The position numbers were made by a program, and so were the translations under genes. Source: a virus. Taken from it: a stretch of 20,880 nucleotides of DNA. Below, piece after piece: positions 8,224 through 20,395 of this stretch. The DNA lies in IMG/VR virus record IMGVR_UViG_3300021964_000692, positions 1 through 20,880 of that record; one strand, given 5' to 3'. Under the pieces are notes generated by a model. The model had not been told where the DNA came from. It searched no databases and worked only from the letters and a program-made list of their open reading frames with translations. Numbering within the stretch: the stretch's first letter is position 1; each line of letters begins with the position of its first letter.

Positions 8224-10620
8224 TCACTGTCCACGGTTCCTTGCTAGATTAGCCTGAGTATTGATGCGATAGACGTTTACTTCATTACGATCATCGGCGA
8301 TACCTTGCTGTATCTGCATGCGTTGCATAGCCAGATCAGCGGCCTGCTGTAGTTTGGCCTGATCAATCTGGAAGTCCATGACGTCATTTTGCATCTTACG
8401 TTGAATTTCAACTTGATCATTTTGCAGTTCCTGTTGACGGATCTGAACAAGAGGATCTTGTTGTTGGGCTGTCTCTAACAATGGTGCAAGCTGTTCTAAG
8501 GTGTCTGCAATCTGCTGTGCTATAGCAGCATCTACAGCTTCTGTAGGCAATTGAGGGACTGGCTCCCCAACCATCTGAGATTTTTGAATTGCCTGCTTGA
8601 ACACTTCTTCAACAATATCTCTAGCAAACAAGGACACATGCTCCTGAATATGCGCCTGCAAGATAAGAAAAGCTTGCGGGTTAGCCTGAATAGCTGGCGA
8701 CTGAAGCAATGACGCATGCACACGAATATGTGCACGATGGTCTTGCTCTTTAAATGCCTGACTAGGGGCACCTTTAAGAGCCATTGAGTTTTCCATTCCC
8801 GGATCCATGGGCTGTGGTGGCTGCGGTGCCGGCAGAATTGCATCAATGTTCTTTACATCCAATGCGTCATACATCCGGCGATAGGCTTCATACTGGTTGT
8901 GAAGCTGCGGTGCTGCCTGAGCCAACTGAAGCTGAGTCTGCGCCAAAGACAAACGCTGGGACATTGAGAAGATGTTCGGGTCAGACACTGGTAAGATGTC
9001 AATTCGCCCATCAAAGTCCTGCTGCATAATCTCTGGTGGGATATTCTGCCCAACAAAGTAAGGATAAGGCATCGGGTTACTGGCAAAAACCTCCGCCAGC
9101 ATTCTAAACTCTTGCTTCTGTGCGTAATGCATACGCTTGTGAATGCTAGAGATTACCTTTGAACCCTGCTCAATTAATGCAACCGTAGTCCCAACAGGAG
9201 CCTGTGAGTTAACATCGGCTACCTTTGAGTCTGCCACCTGTGCAAAACGACGACCAGAATCTACAATTACACCAAGAAGCTGGGCAAGTGTAGCTGACGG
9301 CTCTTTGTAAGGCAGCGGGATAATAGAGTTTTTAAGATCGCCGCCGGGAGCGTCAATGTCACGAAACTCGCCGGGGGACAACGGCTCATCGTCATTACGA
9401 ATACGAACGCCCCTAGCTTTAAATCCAGCCGGCAGGTTCGACAAAGTTCCCGCATCAATTAACTGACGCAGAATTGAGGTCGCCGCACGAGACAATCCAC
9501 CGATTGTGTGCAGAAGACCAAAGCCGTAGAACCCAAAACCCGGCAAAAACTTATAGTGTGTGAAATATTGTCTGCGACGCCTTAAGGGATCCGCTTCACG
9601 ATAGCTTCTAACAAGGCTAAGAATTTCTCCAGAACCTTCATCAATGGTAACAATATAAGGTAGCCGAATGCCCGTGGGATCGCCCTGCATGTCAGTATCT
9701 TCAAACCCTTCAAGGTCGAGATCGACATGGACTTCATATAATGTATAGACATCGTCCCCATAATTAGGACGTATTCCCGTAAGCTCGTTAGCACGGTTAT
9801 GAATTTTTCCTTCATCTTCGCTCTCTTCAACTGGTGAAATATTTACGTCTTTGTAAATCCCTGCAAACTGCAGTTTTCTAATTTCGTTTTCAGTCATGCG
9901 GAAAACATGAGTTACCCGTTCTGCGGTTCGTAAATCGGACGCAGTGTAGGGTACAATCAAATCTTCTGCAGGCACAAATTTTGACACAGCGCGTTGTTTT
10001 GTGGGGTCAAAGTATACTTTCTTAAACGTAGAACCAGTCAGCGGCAGATAGTAAAGCATCTGATCAGTGTCTGGATCGAACTCTTCCATTACCTCAGTAA
10101 TCTGATAGTTCATAAAATCTTCAATACGCTGCGCCTGATCTTCCGTCTCTCTGGTTGGTGTGCCAAGAATTTGTGTCTTAACTGGACCACCAGAAGGCAG
10201 CATCTCTTTATACGACTGCGCCTGAAACTGTGTTACTGCTTCAGACAACAATGGATGATGCACACCAGACGCGCCTAAGAAAGGCTCGTTGCGCTCTTCG
10301 TAGTTAATACCAAGAAGGCCAAGACCTTTTGAAATAGCTTCTTCCCACTCATCGCGTGACTCTTGATCTTCTTTAATCTTAGCCCGTAAATCAGACGAAA
10401 TCTCCCGCAGGTCAGTGTCATCCAAAACCTCAGCAAGGTTGGCATTATGGTCGTACTCCTCAGTTTGGACCTCGACCATCTCTTCTTCACCTGCAATCTC
10501 AATGCCCGGTGGTAGCTCGTCCTCAAAACCCGGAAGTTCAACCTGCATTTCTTCAGGCATTAAGTCAGATGGGCCGCCCGGGCCCATTGCCATGTCAACC
10601 ATTTGTGGGGGTAGTGCCAT
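8224..10620 (-). CDS. Portal protein (large, P22-like size)
   Basis: This 798-aa protein forms the dodecameric DNA gate at the capsid vertex. Residues 1-60 are acidic and Met/Pro-rich. The core starts about residue 75 (DLRAKIKEDQESRDEWEEAISKGLGLLGI). It continues with PFLGASGVHHPLLSEAVTQFQAQSYKEMLP, DFMNYQITEVMEEFDPDTDQMLYYLPLTGSTFKKVYFDP and FVPAEDLIVPYTA, which together are the typical wing/clip start of long portals. The segment GFGLLHTIGGLSRAATSILRQLIDAGTLSN and KVISSIHKRMHYAQKQEFRML are the stem/crown-type helices. The C-terminal 180 residues are Gln-rich and helical (QIADTLEQLAPLLETAQQQ, QQELQNDQVEIQRKMQNDV), likely a barrel or coiled coil. Its ATG overlaps the preceding stop by one base and uses AAAGGAAC encoded in that gene's tail. 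Confidence 0.9.
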   Translation of the reverse strand: MALPPQMVDMAMGPGGPSDLMPEEMQVELPGFEDELPPGIEIAGEEEMVEVQTEEYDHNANLAEVLDDTDLREISSDLRAKIKEDQESRDEWEEAISKGLGLLGINYEERNEPFLGASGVHHPLLSEAVTQFQAQSYKEMLPSGGPVKTQILGTPTRETEDQAQRIEDFMNYQITEVMEEFDPDTDQMLYYLPLTGSTFKKVYFDPTKQRAVSKFVPAEDLIVPYTASDLRTAERVTHVFRMTENEIRKLQFAGIYKDVNISPVEESEDEGKIHNRANELTGIRPNYGDDVYTLYEVHVDLDLEGFEDTDMQGDPTGIRLPYIVTIDEGSGEILSLVRSYREADPLRRRRQYFTHYKFLPGFGFYGFGLLHTIGGLSRAATSILRQLIDAGTLSNLPAGFKARGVRIRNDDEPLSPGEFRDIDAPGGDLKNSIIPLPYKEPSATLAQLLGVIVDSGRRFAQVADSKVADVNSQAPVGTTVALIEQGSKVISSIHKRMHYAQKQEFRMLAEVFASNPMPYPYFVGQNIPPEIMQQDFDGRIDILPVSDPNIFSMSQRLSLAQTQLQLAQAAPQLHNQYEAYRRMYDALDVKNIDAILPAPQPPQPMDPGMENSMALKGAPSQAFKEQDHRAHIRVHASLLQSPAIQANPQAFLILQAHIQEHVSLFARDIVEEVFKQAIQKSQMVGEPVPQLPTEAVDAAIAQQIADTLEQLAPLLETAQQQDPLVQIRQQELQNDQVEIQRKMQNDVMDFQIDQAKLQQAADLAMQRMQIQQGIADDRNEVNVYRINTQANLARNRGQ

Positions 10621-10670
10621 TAAAATGTTCCTTTGAATGTTCCGCCACGAGCTTTCATAACAGCGCCGCC
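10614..10670. repeat. 57-bp direct repeat, copy 1 (portal start / small-gene tail)
   Basis: This copy matches 10889-10945 at 56 of 57 positions (difference at 10635 versus 10910). It covers the last 16 codons and stop of the 91-aa gene, the embedded ribosome binding site and the first codons of the portal gene. The second copy holds the same parts of the neighbouring gene pair, which indicates duplication or gene conversion. Confidence 0.95.
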
Positions 10671-10895
10671 TTTAGCTCTGCCGAGTTCTTTGTCGTGCTT
10701 TTTTCTAAGATTTCGTGCTTTGTTGCCCATGTAACCTAAAGCGCCCACGCCTAAAGCAGCCGTGCCGTGAGCAAGGTAATTAGCTATATCTTGTGCATGT
10801 GGCCCCACAGCCATAAACGCATCCATTGCAGCAGAGGTTTTTTTGATGTTCTTATCTTTTTTCTTTTCGGGAGCTTTTGGTTTTCTAGGTGCCAT
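10620..10895 (-). CDS. Small basic protein with possible membrane segment and shared C-terminal tail
   Basis: This 91-aa protein has a Lys/Pro-rich head (MAPRKPKAPEKKKDKNIKK). A moderately hydrophobic region follows (ANYLAHGTAALGVGALGYMGN) that could be a membrane or amphipathic helix, then a basic stretch (KARNLRKKHDKELGRAK) and the tail GGAVMKARGGTFKGTF. That tail is identical to the end of the gene upstream of it. The stop and the portal ATG overlap by one base (TAATG), and its start similarly overlaps the preceding stop. No family recognised. Small size, strong charge and location between terminase and portal would suit a minor virion or DNA-packaging accessory protein. Confidence 0.65.
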   Translation of the reverse strand: MAPRKPKAPEKKKDKNIKKTSAAMDAFMAVGPHAQDIANYLAHGTAALGVGALGYMGNKARNLRKKHDKELGRAKGGAVMKARGGTFKGTF

Positions 10896-10945
10896 TAAAA
10901 TGTTCCTTTAAATGTTCCGCCACGAGCTTTCATAACAGCGCCGCC
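10889..10945. repeat. 57-bp direct repeat, copy 2
   Basis: Second copy of the 10614-10670 repeat, offset by exactly 275 bp with a single mismatch. It encodes the identical C-terminal tail of the 103-aa gene plus the first two codons of the 91-aa gene (ATG GCA). The flanks on both sides are unrelated between the copies, so the repeat is bounded by the tail motif and the following start codon. Confidence 0.95.
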
Positions 10946-14400: not shown

Positions 14401-14792
14401 GCATATAACGCGCCGGGAGCCAGAAACCTGCCCGCCATCTCTGGACGAAGTTCCCCCTGTTCATCAAAGAACTCGTCAGAAAGCTCTACACCAGCTTTTG
14501 CTGCAAGGCCCGATGCACCAAAATCTTTTGCAAACTGACTTACATTTTCCCTGACTTTAGGATTTGTGGCATAAAGAACGGGGCTTGAAATGACTGAAGC
14601 AGGCACCGCTAAATCCCCCAGTAACCCGGGAATGCCAAAAACCTCTTCCTTAACAAGACCAGTAGCCATCTGGGATAGCCGGTCCACCATACCTGATCCA
14701 GCCTCAGTGAGATTTTGCATGCGCTTGGAAAAACCAGCGGCTCTTTCCGCCTGTTGCTCATCTATACTTTTATCTATATAGCGCTTTGCCAT
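11403..14792 (-). CDS. Large 1129-aa probable internal virion protein
   Basis: This is the largest gene, between terL and portal. The N-terminus is helical and partly hydrophobic (GIPGLLGDLAVPASVISSPVLYATNP, residues about 50-80), followed by a Pro-rich linker. Residues about 425-465 (HDYFKDDISGFFGQVRFSIV ... RRYMSLNEFQADLI) resemble the block HVRF...G...LfIxExQSDxHQ found in very large marine phage proteins. Residues about 868-895 (FALRAAVREAEKLGLDGVVVPDWADMSVM) resemble its usual partner, a helix plus a GxDxVxxx strand. Here they are separated by roughly 400 residues. The end, YNKGGHVDIRGGIGAMARSVM, is Gly-rich. Size and neighbours suggest an ejection or internal head protein. ATG 14792 overlaps the terL stop by one base. 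Confidence 0.65.
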   Translation of the reverse strand: MAKRYIDKSIDEQQAERAAGFSKRMQNLTEAGSGMVDRLSQMATGLVKEEVFGIPGLLGDLAVPASVISSPVLYATNPKVRENVSQFAKDFGASGLAAKAGVELSDEFFDEQGELRPEMAGRFLAPGALYAKVATLAPKVGRGLQDLVSGLRDNDFFPPNGPQLNPVTVAPDPRTTFPMDKAPVPETSVMLNEARGTGSTDARLVDLISKGDINTPEDIKSFFPDFRILNPEDFPSQDKFEYAEKSAQYKLINQYRASPKEKKIKKTLAPNPETYMISEEGASMIGDAHSPLLDVLKKMDIPPGGIAGSSVIEQVGKQLSNRRNIELDQYGLVDYFSKNADKKFSREELIETFDTVAPSIDVKTVMETDLQTAGVPSLAYQTPDGVTDAAALDGHGVIVFGNRKGAQVGGVKLKGVPGHDYFKDDISGFFGQVRFSIVPDPYNPDSGRRYMSLNEFQADLIRGLTDLAEGRDTSYARRMIQDQRVPLTPGEKLALKEIDTSLEKSNYSQMEKTATQLDEEARQIQGKGEYRLGLRADGAPSRQRAQSRNKFDIALRALNEGLADRKTPEQVEEFLLRLLGDDNTTDNTILRDGLTEMWRRSNATAVSRLQAMSDAGIGSAMPGMLRKMIKEKDTLAEFQKEALFDELQQIENVFDMNRVLEDATRYSEDLTKAFLKGVEGDNSSIVIGLSGKKVQNARSQLSRDEVLAALPDGWYEKTVNDLVEKYKATDKQIGSGKFPYKNMRGYSRVNNIGTNNTRRTAEAVVNDVLDYMGNAPGTTLTGARTLGTNFKNWMDKKNYFNAAEKRLSEIDGLRPSDIDIQEAKQDFYTDVLQKSGIENVADVLQLRDKTIRSGGTSGYIQDVPFKTQSAFNQFALRAAVREAEKLGLDGVVVPDWADMSVMPGRLDSTEFTMGTNTDVTIPIYTDVATKIDEAVKKRTDFHTQEGSYYIPDENYLPVKDIKEIIDSIEDPKQKEAIVGLMPSNTSSDQFAKTTLKSYARGEELGEYYPDIAEDLVDVGVMKNTIQGLLDTGREQTKKYRAFKTNYGDVLDAGLQRLVSEGVTVENKPFGLYNPRENKIEPFGDIKRPARVIELTGKTKDIAKKVPSAYNKGGHVDIRGGIGAMARSVM

Positions 14793-16267
14793 TAATAGTA
14801 TTCTCTCTTACGAGGTGGGCCCCAGTCTTCAAGCTCTTCGCCGTCCAAACTAATGAAGCCGCCCTGCCGAAACCGCATAACAGCCATCGTCATACTGTCG
14901 CAGTAATCGTCATGATCTCCATTTGGAAACGAGGCAACTTCTTCTATTACTTCTTCAGCGAATTTACGTTCAGGATACCATACTTTTCCAGATTCGAATA
15001 TAGGGGCAACCATATGCATACGGGTTGTTTTGTCCAACCCACCCCCGCCTTTGCGCCGGCCCGGAGCAAAGGTAGTAACCGGCAAATTCTGCAGACGTAA
15101 CTCGTCCGCCAGCGGCATACCAGAAGCCTTCGCCTCAATTAACATCATGTCCGGTTCCCAATACTCATTTTCCTCTAAAGCAATCGCTTTTAACTCAGGA
15201 AAATTCCAGCGACCCTTCTTCGCATCAAGCAAGATCAGATGCTGATCCCCGTCCTCACGAGGCTGAAACACACCCCATGTAGTAATAGCAGAATAGTCAG
15301 CCGTCTCTTTTTTGCTGTACGCCGTATCGTAAGACTGAATCACATACTCTAGCTTAGGGGTGTCTTCTCGCTCCCACACGTTCCACCACTCACGTTTCAC
15401 TAACGCCGTAGCATCCGATGTAGGATTTTGTTGCCACTGGGCATTCCACTTTCCGGGAGACAGTGACGCCTTTACCTTAAGTAGCTCGTCCTTGTTCCAG
15501 AATTCAGGCCACAGTGGTTCCCCCGACGGCATGATTGCAGGGAATTCTACTACCTCCCACTGATCCGCCATTGTGTCCATGCCCTGCGCCTGCAGTAACC
15601 TGCCCGTAATGTCTTTCTTAGACCACCGCGTCTGGACAATAATGATGGCACCGCCCGGTTGAAGACGCTGTCTCGGACCAGATGTGTACCACTCCCACGC
15701 ATTGTCATAAGCACTTGGGGAAAGTGCGTCCTGCTCCGAGTGCGGATCGTCAATAATTAACAAATCCGCGCCACGACCAGTCATTGCAGCGCCCACCCCA
15801 GCCGCAAAATATTCCCCGCCAGCGCTAGTCTCCCAACGACCCGCTGCTTGGCTATCCGCTTTTAGATCTGTCTTAGGAAAAATATCTCTATATATAGGGT
15901 CCGCTATCAAGTCACGAACCTTACGACCAAACCTTACAGCAAGTTCCGTATTCATGGTAGCTTGAATAATTTTTAACTTTGGATTCCGGCCCAAAAACCA
16001 GCTAGGCATAAGATACGAAGCAAATTCTGATTTAGAATGCCGGGGTGGCATGTTTACAATCAAGCGTTTTAATTCACCACGCGCAATTTTCTCTAGCTTT
16101 TCTGCAATGATAATATGATGCCGGCCTTCAATGAAGCCATCATATACATGATGGACATACGGCATAAACTGTTCTTGGGCTTTATCGCGTGTCTCTAGGC
16201 GCTTGCGCTGTTCTTCCAGCAGCAAAACTTCCTGTAACACTTCTTTTGGCAGAGCATCTAGGTTCAT
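14792..16267 (-). CDS. terL: Terminase large subunit (ATPase and nuclease)
   Basis: From MNLDALPKEVLQE this is 491 aa, the usual length. The motor pumps DNA into the procapsid and cuts it. The N-terminal ATPase has RLIVNMPPRHSKSE (Walker A-type, residues about 70-81), GRGADLLIIDDPHS (Walker B, about 166-177) and VQTRW (coupling motif). The C-terminal RNase H-like nuclease shows YVIQSYDTAYS (D314), LIEAKASG (E378) and DDYCDSM (D457), the expected acidic triad. I prefer ATG 16267; a TTG at 16303 would extend the protein by 12 residues but would overlap the promoter region. A TATAAT box and flanking repeats lie upstream. Its small subunit partner is not adjacent but lies at 19531-20121. The stop overlaps the next start (TAATG). 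Confidence 0.95.
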   Translation of the reverse strand: MNLDALPKEVLQEVLLLEEQRKRLETRDKAQEQFMPYVHHVYDGFIEGRHHIIIAEKLEKIARGELKRLIVNMPPRHSKSEFASYLMPSWFLGRNPKLKIIQATMNTELAVRFGRKVRDLIADPIYRDIFPKTDLKADSQAAGRWETSAGGEYFAAGVGAAMTGRGADLLIIDDPHSEQDALSPSAYDNAWEWYTSGPRQRLQPGGAIIIVQTRWSKKDITGRLLQAQGMDTMADQWEVVEFPAIMPSGEPLWPEFWNKDELLKVKASLSPGKWNAQWQQNPTSDATALVKREWWNVWEREDTPKLEYVIQSYDTAYSKKETADYSAITTWGVFQPREDGDQHLILLDAKKGRWNFPELKAIALEENEYWEPDMMLIEAKASGMPLADELRLQNLPVTTFAPGRRKGGGGLDKTTRMHMVAPIFESGKVWYPERKFAEEVIEEVASFPNGDHDDYCDSMTMAVMRFRQGGFISLDGEELEDWGPPRKREYY

Positions 16268-16300
16268 GGTCCAAACGATAATACATTCGAATGAATTTAT

Positions 16301-16328
16301 CAATCAGTGTATTATACAGCCAATCAGT
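16301..16328 (-). promoter_or_regulatory. Late-operon promoter: TATAAT flanked by ACTGATTG direct repeats
   Basis: On the minus strand TATAAT lies at 16316-16311, about 44 nt before the terL ATG. It is the centre of an 11-bp palindrome (TGTATTATACA, 16308-16318). Two ACTGATTG repeats flank it at 16328-16321 and 16308-16301, 20 bp apart, i.e. about two helical turns. A third copy lies at 16392-16385. No good -35 hexamer is present at 17 bp. This suggests an activator-dependent or repressor-controlled promoter for the whole leftward packaging and structural cluster. Confidence 0.6.
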
Positions 16329-16426
16329 AACACCACACCCCAAAAATAAGGGGGTCCCCCCTAACGCGATGCCAAGCTGGTTGCCAATCAGTGGGAGTAA
16401 CCCCCGAGAAGAGACACGGAACGTGT

Positions 16427-16458
16427 GCCACAAACTCCGTTTGTGGCCTCGCTTTTTT
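16427..16458 (+). terminator. Hairpin with delayed T-run in copy A
   Basis: The 9-bp perfect stem GCCACAAAC/GTTTGTGGC with a TCC loop is followed by CTCGC and then TTTTTT. The five-base gap before the T-run makes it a weaker intrinsic terminator than usual. In copy A no rightward gene lies upstream, so here it may block stray antisense transcription out of terL or act as an RNA or DNA structure. Confidence 0.5.
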
Positions 16459-16470
16459 CAAGTCAGAAAT

Positions 16471-16524
16471 TTGACGTGTCAGAATCTTGACGTGTCAGAA
16501 TCTTGACGTGTCAAATAGATGACA
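16471..16524 (+). promoter_or_regulatory. Operator-like iteron array TGACGTGTCA, period 16 bp
   Basis: Three copies of the near-palindrome TTGACGTGTCA start at 16471, 16487 and 16503, separated by GAATC-type spacers. GTCA (16463-16466) precedes the array and TGAC (16520-16523) follows it, so TGAC/GTCA half-sites alternate throughout. Such arrays are typical binding sites for a phage repressor or replication initiator. The wHTH-like protein encoded next is an obvious candidate ligand, but this is inference. Confidence 0.65.
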
Positions 16525-16531
16525 AAATAAT
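16503..16531 (+). promoter_or_regulatory. Sigma-70-type promoter for the rightward regulator gene
   Basis: TTGACG (16503-16508), a 17-bp spacer and AATAAT (16526-16531) match five of six positions in each hexamer. The -35 is formed by the last iteron, so a protein bound to the array would occlude RNA polymerase. The expected start of transcription is about 16538, leaving a leader of nearly 80 nt before the ATG at 16616. In copy B the same -35 exists but the -10 position is degraded. Confidence 0.65.
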
Positions 16532-16567
16532 TGTTGTGGTCTGTCCTAGTAGGGGCTATTGTTGATT

Positions 16568-16603
16568 ATGGGATTTATCCCATGTTGTTAACGCCATTAA
16601 CAA
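16568..16603 (+). promoter_or_regulatory. Two perfect inverted repeats in the regulator leader
   Basis: ATGGGATTTATCCCAT (16568-16583) is a 16-bp palindrome with 7-bp arms. It is followed one base later by TTGTTAACGCCATTAACAA (16585-16603), with 7-bp arms and a 5-nt loop that ends two bases before the GGAGG ribosome site. The first contains the TGGGAT motif found upstream of two other rightward genes. The second could fold in RNA next to the ribosome site or be a DNA operator. Confidence 0.6.
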
Positions 16604-16615
16604 ACGGAGGTTACT

Positions 16616-17047
16616 ATGGACAACAACTACTATAACATCGAGAGCAAGCTCGATATCCTATCGGCTGCTGTGCGGATCAATGAACTGGCAAGCAAGTCTG
16701 ACAGTGTTAAGACAAGAGATGCTAACAGCATCGTGGCAAGAGTTGTGCTGGCTTATGTCAGAGGCGAAGTGTTCGAAGAGGCGCAAGCGGTCGAAGATCC
16801 TGAGCCGCAAACGACAGTCAGCAAGCGGCTTGGCGTGTCGTTATATAAGCTAGTCAAGGCGGAGCAATTCTTACGCCAAGGTTTCAAGTCTCGTGTCCAG
16901 ATTGCCAATCATCTGAGCATCACAACCGACACAGTAAAGACCAAGGTGCTGCCAAATCTGCGCCGGCTTCACAATGTCGAGCGTGAGCGTTTCGGTGTTA
17001 CAGGTAAATACAAATATCGCATCGCATCACTAACAGCATACAAATAA
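16616..17047 (+). CDS. Winged-helix-like DNA-binding regulator, family not recognised
   Basis: This 143-aa basic protein has an N-terminal helical region (residues 1-55, MDNNYYNIESKLDILSAAVR...). A second segment may contain an HTH (TTVSKRLGVSLYKLVKAEQFLRQG, about 66-90). A third, better one follows: SRVQIANHLSITTDTVKTKVLPNLRRLHNV (about 92-121), after which ERFGVTGKYKYRIAS could be the wing strands. The two HTH-like units suggest a transcriptional regulator or replication-initiator-type protein. It is the first rightward gene, next to terL but divergent from it, behind an iteron array, a promoter and two palindromes. Autoregulation is therefore likely. CGGAGG lies at ideal distance from the ATG. 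Confidence 0.7.
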   Translation: MDNNYYNIESKLDILSAAVRINELASKSDSVKTRDANSIVARVVLAYVRGEVFEEAQAVEDPEPQTTVSKRLGVSLYKLVKAEQFLRQGFKSRVQIANHLSITTDTVKTKVLPNLRRLHNVERERFGVTGKYKYRIASLTAYK

Positions 17048-17067
17048 TCCATCGCATAATGGCAACT

Positions 17068-17117
17068 GGCCGCGTCACTGCGATGGGTGTCTCCCAAGTG
17101 TGGCGCGGTCTCTTTTA
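17068..17117 (+). terminator. Possible terminator after the regulator gene
   Basis: GGCCGCG and CGCGGTC can form a 7-bp stem (one G-U pair) with a loop of about 30 nt. TCTCTTTTA follows and runs directly into the TTGGAGG ribosome site of the next gene. The large loop makes this a weak call. Confidence 0.35.
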
Positions 17118-17129
17118 TTGGAGGCAGGC

Positions 17130-17321
17130 ATGGCAGCAAGCATAGCAAAAGACGGAACAAAGTTTGTGGAGAAGCCACCCAAGACAGCCATGGGCTATAA
17201 AGACTATGGCACAGGCATCCCAGACAGGCTCGCAGGAGAGCCAAGCAGCTCACCAATCTTCGATCACTACAGCTTTCATGGCTGGCCTGACATGAGTGAC
17301 GAACAAACATGGGACGAGTGA
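17130..17321 (+). CDS. 63-aa hypothetical protein
   Basis: I start the protein at ATG 17130 (MAASIAKDGTKFVEK) because GGAGG lies five bases ahead; the upstream in-frame ATG at 17100 lies inside the presumed terminator. The sequence is polar and acidic toward the end, with KPPKTAMGYKDYGTGIPDRLAGEPSS and SFHGWPDMSDEQTWDE. No domain, membrane segment or cysteine pattern is present. Small acidic proteins in early phage regions often bind host proteins, but there is no specific evidence for that here. The gene is followed by a T-rich stretch and the next ribosome site. Confidence 0.55.
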   Translation: MAASIAKDGTKFVEKPPKTAMGYKDYGTGIPDRLAGEPSSSPIFDHYSFHGWPDMSDEQTWDE

Positions 17322-17337
17322 CGCTTGTTCTTTTTTA
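17301..17337 (+). terminator. Possible weak terminator overlapping the stop of the 63-aa gene
   Basis: GAACAA and TTGTTC can pair across about 22 nt spanning the stop codon, followed immediately by TTTTTTATT. The stem is short and AT-rich. The T-run merges into the TTGGAG ribosome site of the next gene, the same arrangement as at 17117. Confidence 0.3.
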
Positions 17338-17349
17338 TTGGAGATGATT

Positions 17350-17562
17350 ATGACATATGTATCTTGTGACACCAAAACATACGAGGCGTTTGAAAAAGCG
17401 TGTGATAGAAAACTACAAAGCATAATCGGCTTTGGCATCAACGATCTAGCTGATGCAACATGGCGCGACTATTATGATGCTGGTATGTCACCAATCGATG
17501 CAATCCACTGTGCTAACGATGACGCATGGGATGGTGAAATAAGTGAATTCCTACACGGTTAA
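17350..17562 (+). CDS. 70-aa acidic protein with DLxDxxxxDxYDxGxSPxDA motif
   Basis: The protein is MTYVSCDTKTYEAFEKACDRK, then a helix into GINDLADATWRDYYDAGMSPIDAIHCANDD and an acidic end. ATG 17350 is chosen because GGAG at 17340-17343 is spaced six bases ahead; ATG 17344 is too close. The pattern F...C...L......G(I/L)xxxDLxDxxxxDxYDxGxSPxDA resembles a class of short phage and plasmid proteins of unknown function that I know from several hosts, though I cannot give the family name with certainty. It is predicted to be two helices joined by the DLAD...D turn. It is followed by a strong terminator. Confidence 0.6.
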   Translation: MTYVSCDTKTYEAFEKACDRKLQSIIGFGINDLADATWRDYYDAGMSPIDAIHCANDDAWDGEISEFLHG

Positions 17563-17563
17563 C

Positions 17564-17593
17564 AAAAGGGGCGGCTGCGGTCGCCTCTTTTTT
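17564..17593 (+). terminator. Rho-independent terminator after the 70-aa gene
   Basis: AAAAGGGGCG-GCTGCGGT-CGCCTCTTTTTT forms a 10-bp stem (six GC-rich pairs with one G-U, then four A-U) with an 8-nt loop ending in six T. It starts two bases after the stop codon. Confidence 0.8.
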
Positions 17594-17633
17594 ATCCCGC
17601 CAAACTTCGAAGCGGGAGGCGCAGAGCGCAAGG

Positions 17634-17729
17634 GACACGGAACGTGTGCCACAAACTCCGTTTGTGGCCTCGCTTTTTTCAAGTCAGAAATTTGACGTGT
17701 CAGAATTTTGACGTGTCAAATAGATGACA
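17634..17729. repeat. Long direct repeat copy B: hairpin plus two 16-bp iterons
   Basis: This is the second copy of the 16413-16524 module, in the same orientation, with two TTGACGTGTCA units instead of three. It keeps the ACACG...CGTGT repeat, the GCCACAAAC hairpin with its T-run (hairpin 17648-17668) and the AAATAGATGACA end. After 17729 the copies diverge: copy A continues AAATAAT (-10) and copy B CCATGAACC. Confidence 0.97.
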
Positions 17730-17746
17730 CCATGAACCATGTTCCG

Positions 17747-17760
17747 TGTGCTATGATACA
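17747..17760 (+). promoter_or_regulatory. Extended -10 promoter for the 100-aa gene
   Basis: TGCTATGAT (17749-17757) matches the extended -10 form TGnTATaAT at all but one position. No good -35 lies 17 bp upstream, as is usual for extended -10 promoters. It lies about 40 nt upstream of the ATG at 17794 and just downstream of the copy B iterons, which could act as an upstream operator. Confidence 0.5.
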
Positions 17761-17793: not shown

Positions 17794-18096
17794 ATGTTTC
17801 AACTTTCATATGTTTTGTTTATCGATGAGCGGTCTTATCGTGGCGAGCGCGAGTTTTTCACGCGGCAGTTTGCTACAGAGGCGGAAGCCCGCGCATTCGA
17901 GCTCGGGCTTCACGAGGGCTCGCGTTGGGATGTTCTCGACACTGATTCATGGCACGATGCCTTGCCGCGCGATGAGTCTATTTCGCTCGCTGATCACCAT
18001 CAGGCTTTTCTCGACATGTGGTCGGAGCGCGGCGAACGCGGCGAATGGGCGCATCTTTCCCCGTGCGATCCGCGCCATGAATCTGAATCACTATAA
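17794..18096 (+). CDS. 100-aa hypothetical protein, charged, GC-rich
   Basis: The protein starts MFQLSYVLFIDERSYRGEREFFTRQFATEAEARAFELGLHEG (a strand, then a basic strand, then an amphipathic helix ATEAEARAFELGL). It continues with SRWDVLDTDSWHDAL and a highly charged end. I use ATG 17794 with TTGGAG ahead of it; the TTG at 17779 is part of that ribosome site. The beta-beta-alpha start could belong to a small alpha/beta domain, but no family is recognised. The gene looks richer in G+C, with many CG-ending codons, than its neighbours, which may point to separate acquisition. It is closed by a UUCG-tetraloop terminator. Confidence 0.6.
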   Translation: MFQLSYVLFIDERSYRGEREFFTRQFATEAEARAFELGLHEGSRWDVLDTDSWHDALPRDESISLADHHQAFLDMWSERGERGEWAHLSPCDPRHESESL

Positions 18097-18147: not shown

Positions 18148-18255
18148 TGACAGACAAGGGGCGCAGGCTGGGCGCGCAAAGCGCAAAGATCCAAGGCATT
18201 TGAACCATGAACCACGGTCTTTTGACAGAAAAAGGGCGCAGGCCAGACGCGCAAA
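18148..18255. repeat. Pair of 33-bp imperfect direct repeats in a non-coding spacer
   Basis: 18148-18180 and 18223-18255 match at 28 of 33 positions, 75 bp apart. Their shared core is TGACAGA...GGGCGCAGGC followed by CGCGCAAA. The spacer 18137-18443 holds no convincing gene: frames across it are open only in GC-rich shadow frames and lack ribosome sites. A small RNA or a protein-binding region is possible. Confidence 0.7.
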
Positions 18256-18380
18256 TGAATATAGAACCATCTGCCAAGGTGCACGATGCAAGAACCAAGG
18301 AAACCTGAAACAGCCGAAAAGCTTTAATCTGGGACAAATAATAGTTTTTCCCATTTCCAAGGCTTTCTTTTTTATTGCAT

Positions 18381-18401
18381 TAGCTGGGATTTTATGGGAT
18401 T
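18381..18401 (+). promoter_or_regulatory. TAGCTGGGATT operator-like element upstream of the 242-aa gene
   Basis: TAGCTGGGATTTTATGGGATT contains TGGGAT twice, 10 bp (one helical turn) apart, and lies 43 nt before the ATG at 18444. It matches 20343-20363 at 19 of 21 positions. Confidence 0.6.
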
Positions 18402-18443
18402 GTTATTTATCAGTTTATTTCTCAATGTTTAGAGGGCATTACC

Positions 18444-19172
18444 ATGAAACCACAAAATTCGATCATATACAAAGGCGCATCCGAAATAGACGGCTCGCCC
18501 ATTGTCGTTATTGCTATTGTGAAAAGCAGCAATCGCAAGACCGGCGACATGGTGCAAACATATATATTGAACGATAACGGCCTTGATCCTATGGAAAATA
18601 ACAAGCTTGGCAACGATTTTTCAATATGCGGGGATTGTAAACACAGAGGCGAAGCATTAACGCCGGCGCATCCGGATTTTGGAAAGTATAAAATGGCAAA
18701 GGGGCGGACATGTTACGTTGCTTTGTTCCAAGGTGTTTTGATCACTTGGAAACATTATATGAAAGGTGGCTATCCAACGGCGCAAGGTCATGATGCTATA
18801 GCCGCATTGGGTGCGGGTCGAATGGTTCGGGTCGGTACATACGGAGACGGCGCAGCCGTTCCAAGTTATATTTGGGACAGTCTTTTATCACAAGCTGAGG
18901 GTCATACAGGATACAGCCATCAATCAGGCTTGGTCGAAGTTGATCCAATGATTTATATGATCAGCGCGGACACAGAAGCAGAAGCCCGCCAAGCTTGGCA
19001 ATCAGGCAAGCGGACATTTCGCGTTATACAGAAAACGGAAGAACTTATAAAAGGCTCTGAGGCTTTATGCCCCGCCAGCAAGGAAGCAGGCCGGCGGGCA
19101 ACGTGCGACACTTGCAAGTTATGCGCCGGCGCATCAGTCAAAGCAAAATCAATCGCAATCGTTCAACACTAA
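18444..19172 (+). CDS. Cysteine-rich phage/plasmid protein of unknown function
   Basis: This 242-aa protein begins with SEIDGSPIVVIAI, then SSNRKTGDMVQTYIL. Next comes SICGDCKHRG (C62, C65), with RTCYV (C90). The middle reads AGRMVRVGTYGDGAAVPSYIWDSL and GHTGYSHQSG. The C-terminus has ALCPASKEAGRRATCDTCKLCAG (C209, C221, C224, C227). I recognise this order (NxKTGxMxQTxIL, CGDCxHRG, CYV, RxGTYGDxAAVP, TGYxHQ, CPAS.....C..C.LC) from proteins in phages and plasmids of many Proteobacteria, where no function is assigned. The cysteine sets suggest two metal sites or an iron-sulfur cluster. The GTYGD and TGYxHQ blocks could be active-site loops of an alpha/beta barrel. A radical-type enzyme is a guess. 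It has its own leader with an operator-like motif and a strong terminator. Confidence 0.78.
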   Translation: MKPQNSIIYKGASEIDGSPIVVIAIVKSSNRKTGDMVQTYILNDNGLDPMENNKLGNDFSICGDCKHRGEALTPAHPDFGKYKMAKGRTCYVALFQGVLITWKHYMKGGYPTAQGHDAIAALGAGRMVRVGTYGDGAAVPSYIWDSLLSQAEGHTGYSHQSGLVEVDPMIYMISADTEAEARQAWQSGKRTFRVIQKTEELIKGSEALCPASKEAGRRATCDTCKLCAGASVKAKSIAIVQH

Positions 19173-20267: not shown

Positions 20268-20342
20268 CCTATTTTACAAAAATAAAAAACAAATTAAAAA
20301 AATATCACAGAAACACTATGTAGCGTGTTTTTTTGCTTTACA

Positions 20343-20363
20343 TAGCTGGGATTCTATAGGATT
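20343..20363 (+). promoter_or_regulatory. TAGCTGGGATT operator-like element upstream of the zinc-ribbon gene
   Basis: TAGCTGGGATTCTATAGGATT matches 18381-18401 at 19 of 21 positions and ends 33 nt before ATG 20396. TTGCTT (20333-20338) and TATAGG (20355-20360), 16 bp apart, could be a weak promoter overlapped by the element. TAGGATTATTCCTA (20357-20370) adds an inverted repeat. Confidence 0.6.
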
Positions 20364-20395
20364 ATTCCTAGACAACTTAACAAGGAGCATGGATC

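Follow-up and report, generated by a model that had tools for sequence, protein, structure and literature searches.

Arbiol in 2010 and Comeau in 2014 are said to have described the PeSL cassettes of T4-type phages. These promoter-early stem-loops are repeated intergenic cassettes in which a stem-loop terminator is combined with an early promoter (PMC4503421). In Cluster K mycobacteriophages, the SAS/ESAS are inverted-repeat elements found upstream of unrelated genes, with a consensus that differs by subcluster (PMC3203893), and the stoperators of Cluster A mycobacteriophages are repeated sites of one regulator, asymmetric, distributed genome-wide and bound by the immunity repressor (PMC9283540, PMC6550527). 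The FleQ boxes of Pseudomonas have the form GTCAAT-N2-ATTGAC (PMC10723142).

Here we describe two intergenic blocks, A and B, in a window of viral DNA (the whole stretch of 20,880 nt that was analysed, from IMG/VR record IMGVR_UViG_3300021964_000692). Judged by its sequence, the repeated block is a regulatory cassette like the PeSLs, though the phage family is unrelated; new to the type are a row of operators and the marks of concerted evolution. As in PeSLs, a stem-loop with terminator features (z -5.4, T6 at a 5-nt offset) is joined to a candidate promoter, similar copies (two to four) are repeated in a variable region of small genes, and the copies may act as recombination joints. The carrier is not a T4-type myovirus; its terminase and portal match HTVC023P-type podoviruses. 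Also unlike PeSLs, the cassettes number only two to four and lie near terL in the stretch examined, they have a built-in row of GTCA-N6-TGAC operators, and their core is homogenised within each genome; promoter and terminator are here predicted from the sequence. With SAS/ESAS the blocks share the arrangement of repeated upstream elements with inverted repeats in front of unrelated genes, but SAS are numerous and situated at translation starts, whereas the blocks precede candidate promoters and each has a hairpin; the SAS/ESAS sequence GGGATAGGAGCCC, located at the translation start, does not occur in the blocks, which are at least 64 nt upstream of start codons. Stoperators resemble the phage sites in being regulator sites repeated at several places, but the latter are palindromic and confined to the blocks, and neither an integrase nor an HTH_3 repressor was found in four related records. 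The phage operators have the 14-bp architecture of FleQ boxes (GTCA-N6-TGAC), which is a resemblance of motif only and serves as a lead, and they differ from FleQ boxes in their tandem arrangement at a 16-bp pitch.

Results

Genomic setting

The window is assigned to the genome of a podovirus related to the pelagiphages HTVC027P/HTVC023P, since its large terminase shares 60% identity with the Pelagibacter phage HTVC027P enzyme and its portal protein likewise matches the HTVC027P/HTVC023P group. Block A is situated at a point of divergence, with the structural arm running leftward from terL and the early arm running rightward (Table 1). Four related records contained neither an integrase (PF00589) nor an HTH_3 repressor; they are fragments, so that absence is not proof. 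The phage is probably lytic. Contigs L001-L005 were near-identical and were taken as one genotype, the nearest to the window (L005 hereafter). A search of 50,697 phage records gave no DNA similar to the blocks. In the structural arm, a separate 57-nt repeat (98%; window 10614-10670 and 10889-10945) encodes a common C-terminal peptide, GGAVMKARGGTFKGTF, in two adjacent small proteins.

Table 1 Predicted features of the block A-block B region, with positions in the window
Feature	Position	Strand	Remarks
terL	14792..16303	-	start of structural arm, divergent from block A
Block A	16413..16524	+	112 nt; hairpin and four tandem operators; flanked by terL (-) and gA (+), which diverge
Block A stem-loop	16427..16458	+	GCCACAAAC-TCC-GTTTGTGGC, then CTCGC, T6
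Block A operators (four)	16462-16475, 16478-16491, 16494-16507, 16510-16523	.	
Candidate promoter A1	16503..16531	+	TTGACG-17-AATAAT; only in window and nearest relative (L005)
Candidate promoter A2	16534..16562	+	TTGTGG-17-TATTGT; -10 is 33 nt after last operator
gA	16616..17047	+	143 aa; winged helix-turn-helix probable in the C-terminal part (model of low confidence)
Repeated joints flanking gB	17097-17123 and 17317-17343	+	27 nt, 78% alike, ending TTTTATTGGAG
gB	17130..17321	+	63 aa; no family; missing in L005 through deletion between repeated joints
gC	17350..17562	+	70 aa; resembles phrog_519 and, below the Pfam cut-off, DUF5419
Separate intrinsic terminator-like hairpin	17568..17593	+	GGGGCGGC-TGCG-GTCGCCTC-T6; just upstream of block B; read from sequence
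Block B	17634..17729	+	96 nt; hairpin and three tandem operators, between gC and gD
Block B stem-loop	17648..17679	+	stem-loop and T6 identical to block A
Block B operators (three)	17683-17696, 17699-17712, 17715-17728	.	
Candidate extended -10 of unit B	17749..17757	+	TG-C-TATGAT; 23 nt after last operator
gD	17794..18096	+	100 aa, no family; opens unit B

Structure of the repeated block

An earlier note, made from the sequence alone, had described A and B as a duplicated block, and the first 73 and last 22 nt are indeed identical between them. The difference was said there to be exactly one 16-bp unit; A does contain an extra 16-nt unit, but there is one C/T substitution besides. The likeness begins 4 nt before the blocks (AAGA/AAGG). 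No repeat of the window is longer than the A/B pair, and its counterpart ranks first among the repeats of the entire 55.7-kb record of the relative G004 (95 nt, 97%, E 8e-39), where the remaining repeats fall in apparent gene duplications.

The repeated unit had been called a 16-bp iteron. Its 16-bp pitch was confirmed, but a better description is a head-to-tail series of 14-bp inverted-repeat operators, GTCA-N6-TGAC. All seven such sites of the window are inside the blocks (0.2 expected), and G004 also has seven, all in its two blocks (0.7 expected). In three further relatives (L054, L137 and L202) the N6 architecture is kept and the 16-bp pitch is lost; L137 and L202 have three operators at the first position and one at the second, and L054 has the first copy only. 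A PhoB box consists of 11-bp direct repeats, and this identity for the operator array was dropped for that reason.

Viral contigs yielded 63 stretches with tandem operators of the GTCA-N6-TGAC type, which make up ~21 nucleotide groups with a G+C content of 26% to 64%, and several of these arrays are near terL of distant podovirus relatives. Array-bearing stretches in unrelated phages include L038, L044, L151 and L186; some of the array stretches, such as L162 and L163, also have GAAC-N7-GAAC, reminiscent of the alphaproteobacterial LexA box. No operator array was present upstream of terL in the cultured relatives HTVC027P, HTVC023P, DSL-LC04 and 023Pt_psg01, and the exact tandem pattern was not found in the bacterial genomes searched.

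The hairpin of each block (16427-16447 and 17648-17668) has 9 bp and a 3-nt loop (-15.5 kcal/mol, z -5.4), and the T-run begins 5 nt past the stem. The terminator proposed in the earlier note has a real hairpin and a T6 run, but such a role is doubtful for copy A, because the genes to the left of A all run leftward and no rightward transcript is expected there. Since block B is already preceded by the separate terminator-like hairpin at 17568-17593 and A has no expected incoming transcript, the block hairpin may be carried along with the cassette rather than required at each site. An intergenic word resembling GGCGCAGGCCGCAGAGCGCAAGG is located between terminators and promoters family-wide (window 17600-17633 and 18150-18260, and many relatives).

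Promoters and operator spacing

Among sigma70 matches in the region, candidate promoter A1, whose good -10 had been noted, scores highest (10/12), but it is absent in L054, L137 and L202. Copy B lacks an A1-type -10 and is followed by an extended -10, in agreement with the earlier description. In all five genotypes examined the -10 of the first copy (TATTGT or TACTGT) is exactly 33 nt past the last operator, and in four of four the extended -10 of the second copy is exactly 23 nt past it; the last operator is centred near -52 (A) and -42 (B). The 10-nt difference corresponds to about one helical turn, which fits a regulator bound on the same face at both promoters, and the arrangement suggests that this regulator works beside RNA polymerase at conserved promoters. 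It may be an activator, as the predicted promoter B has no -35. A second repeated promoter-like element (76%; window 18368-18404 and 20330-20366) has the sequence TTGCAT/TTTACA-17-GATTGT/GATTAT and is upstream of the genes at 18444 and 20396.

The restriction of all operators to the blocks and the fixed operator-to--10 spacing lend indirect support to the suggestion that both units share a regulator. The further suggestion that this regulator is the gene between the blocks was not borne out. The predicted structure of the gA product is of low confidence (pLDDT 57.6), with a winged-helix topology in the C-terminal half, and comparison of the model with the PDB gave no significant match, the best being to the MarR family (E 1.7). 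L057, L084 and L119 have relatives of gA but not these operators, and other phages have operator arrays but no gA; as the two do not co-occur outside the close clade, gA is a weak candidate for the operator-binding protein. A scan of 81 proteins neighbouring the arrays in other phages revealed no common regulator gene, with HTH families in only a few of them.

Comparison with the nearest relative

Substitutions between the window and L005 amount to 0-1% in the blocks, compared with 14.9% at four-fold sites, and the spacer between terL and block A is likewise nearly invariant. L005 has an extra gene, gZ, directly after block A and is missing gB. The L005 junction is a chimera of both 27-nt gB joints, with the crossover within the common TTTTATTGGAG; this exchange in the short repeated joint removed gB from the relative. 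The gene sets around the copies are gA-gB-gC in the window, gZ-gA-gC in L005 and L202, and gZ-gA in L137. Other parts of the two sequences also diverge in patches, and since this mosaic pattern reaches, for instance, into terL, the breakpoints of exchange are not confined to the blocks. Recombination between A and B had been predicted to delete 1.2 kb with the regulator and two small genes; the size is right (an interval of 1221 bp), but three genes, gA, gB and gC, would be removed, and no such deletion product was seen in any relative examined.

The module in the wider family

A matching intergenic module, in which a C-rich core (CCCACCCTCCCACCC or similar) replaces the hairpin, was identified in L054 (one copy), L137 and L202 (two copies each) and L057, L084 and L119 (two to three copies). 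In L054, L137, L057, L084 and L119 the CCCACCCTCCCACCC-type core reads on its opposite strand as a compact G-quadruplex motif, with two or more copies in each genome other than L054; cores of this type are absent from the window and G004.

In L057, L084, L119 and L137 at least two cores carry the genome's own variant, and their flanks resemble those at the same position elsewhere. In a comparison that covered a 50-nt core in a handful of genotypes, the cores at positions 1 and 2 were 0.92-1.00 identical within the window, L005, L137, L057 and L084, and the 5' flanks in these five 0.55-0.58. Copies 2 and 3 of L119 are alike (0.84) and its first copy has diverged (0.71-0.74), as has the middle copy of L084 (0.60). 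Across genomes, most positional counterparts had a core identity of 0.5-0.76, with the exception of the close pairs L057/L084 and L137/L054 (0.92-0.94). The core thus follows the genome and the flanks follow the position in five genotypes, which points to concerted evolution of the paired cores. The homogenisation surmised in the earlier note is upheld by this pattern, with paired cores 84-92% alike in four other relatives and 5' flanks sorted by position, and by the contrast between blocks and four-fold sites given above. A literature search on concerted evolution of phage intergenic DNA returned nothing relevant.

Among the 41 relatives with enough sequence, separated direct repeats were present within 3 kb upstream of terL in 32 and within 3 kb downstream in none, a contrast that is partly one of coding density, since the structural side has little non-coding DNA. 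The 85 repeat copies are non-coding over 80% of their length (background 33%) and have a median distance of 88 nt to the next start codon; by simple criteria that were applied equally to random positions, 71% contain a terminator-like hairpin (background 12%) and 29% a sigma70-like promoter match (background 11%). Repeated cassettes are thus a common trait of the family, and the copies of any one genome are kept alike, apparently by recombination.

Discussion

We propose, with moderate confidence, that A and B are copies of one regulatory cassette of early units that answer to a shared regulator, are kept alike by recombination and act as homology joints. A single intergenic cassette would stand in two copies at the start of successive early transcription units, consisting from 5' to 3' of a stem-loop able to terminate, three to four operators for binding of a dimer, and, immediately after these, a promoter. 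Both rows would be occupied by a dimeric DNA-binding protein, encoded by host or phage, which would so couple the two units; the extra operator would make A the stronger site, and in the lineage of the window promoter A1 would have its -35 and spacer covered by the bound protein as well. The copies would be homogenised by recombination (gene conversion), either inside one replicating genome or between several, and the cassettes would serve as homology joints for the gain, loss or swap of small gene cassettes. The sequences themselves show the anatomy of the cassette, its recurrence across the family, the concerted evolution and the indel at a nearby joint, whereas the regulator and the sense in which it acts, termination at the stem-loop and gene conversion as the process are inferred.

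Selection for a common regulator could by itself hold the copies alike, and an old duplication maintained in this way, together with its hairpin and without ongoing exchange, would fit both the near-invariance of the blocks and the terL-block A spacer between the window and L005 and the fixed spacing of operators and promoters. We nevertheless consider selection alone fairly unlikely, given that the hairpin half is replaced by the C-rich core in L054, L137, L202, L057, L084 and L119, and that a genome's own variant in at least two copies, as in L137, L057, L084 and L119, does not readily arise from parallel selection. Interpretation of block A as a replication origin, with iterons and a hairpin at a minimum of GC skew and B as a secondary copy, draws on the tandem repeats, typical of iteron origins, and on the cumulative skew, which has its minimum at ~39.0 kb in G004, where block A is at 39.1 kb, and at ~16.0 kb in the window, adjoining block A. 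This minimum is confounded, however, because gene direction also switches there; the repeats are palindromic operators, unlike iterons, which are directional; an operator array is missing at this position in most relatives, and copy B is located 1.2 kb inside the early arm, all of which makes an origin very unlikely.

Two insertions of a small mobile element without coding capacity, of the MITE or REP kind, are hardly credible as the source of the block. Two copies in the same orientation with sharp ends would suit such an element, but neither terminal inverted repeats nor a target duplication could be seen, there are just two copies in 55.7 kb, and relatives have other variants of the module at the same positions, indicating that the sites are old. 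Beyond the recombining regulatory cassette that we prefer, GTCA-N6-TGAC arrays in general might belong to one regulatory system that is widespread among phages but so far unrecognised, with a conserved host protein bearing a Fis/FleQ-type helix-turn-helix as its possible reader, and be placed on self-homogenising cassettes in this family, although we regard this extension as distinctly doubtful.

The defined operator is now available for seeking its binding protein. Mobile terminator-promoter cassettes, previously described as a feature of T4-type phages, are predicted here family-wide in unrelated, abundant marine podoviruses, which suggests that repeated regulatory joints are a general means of reshuffling early genes in phages.
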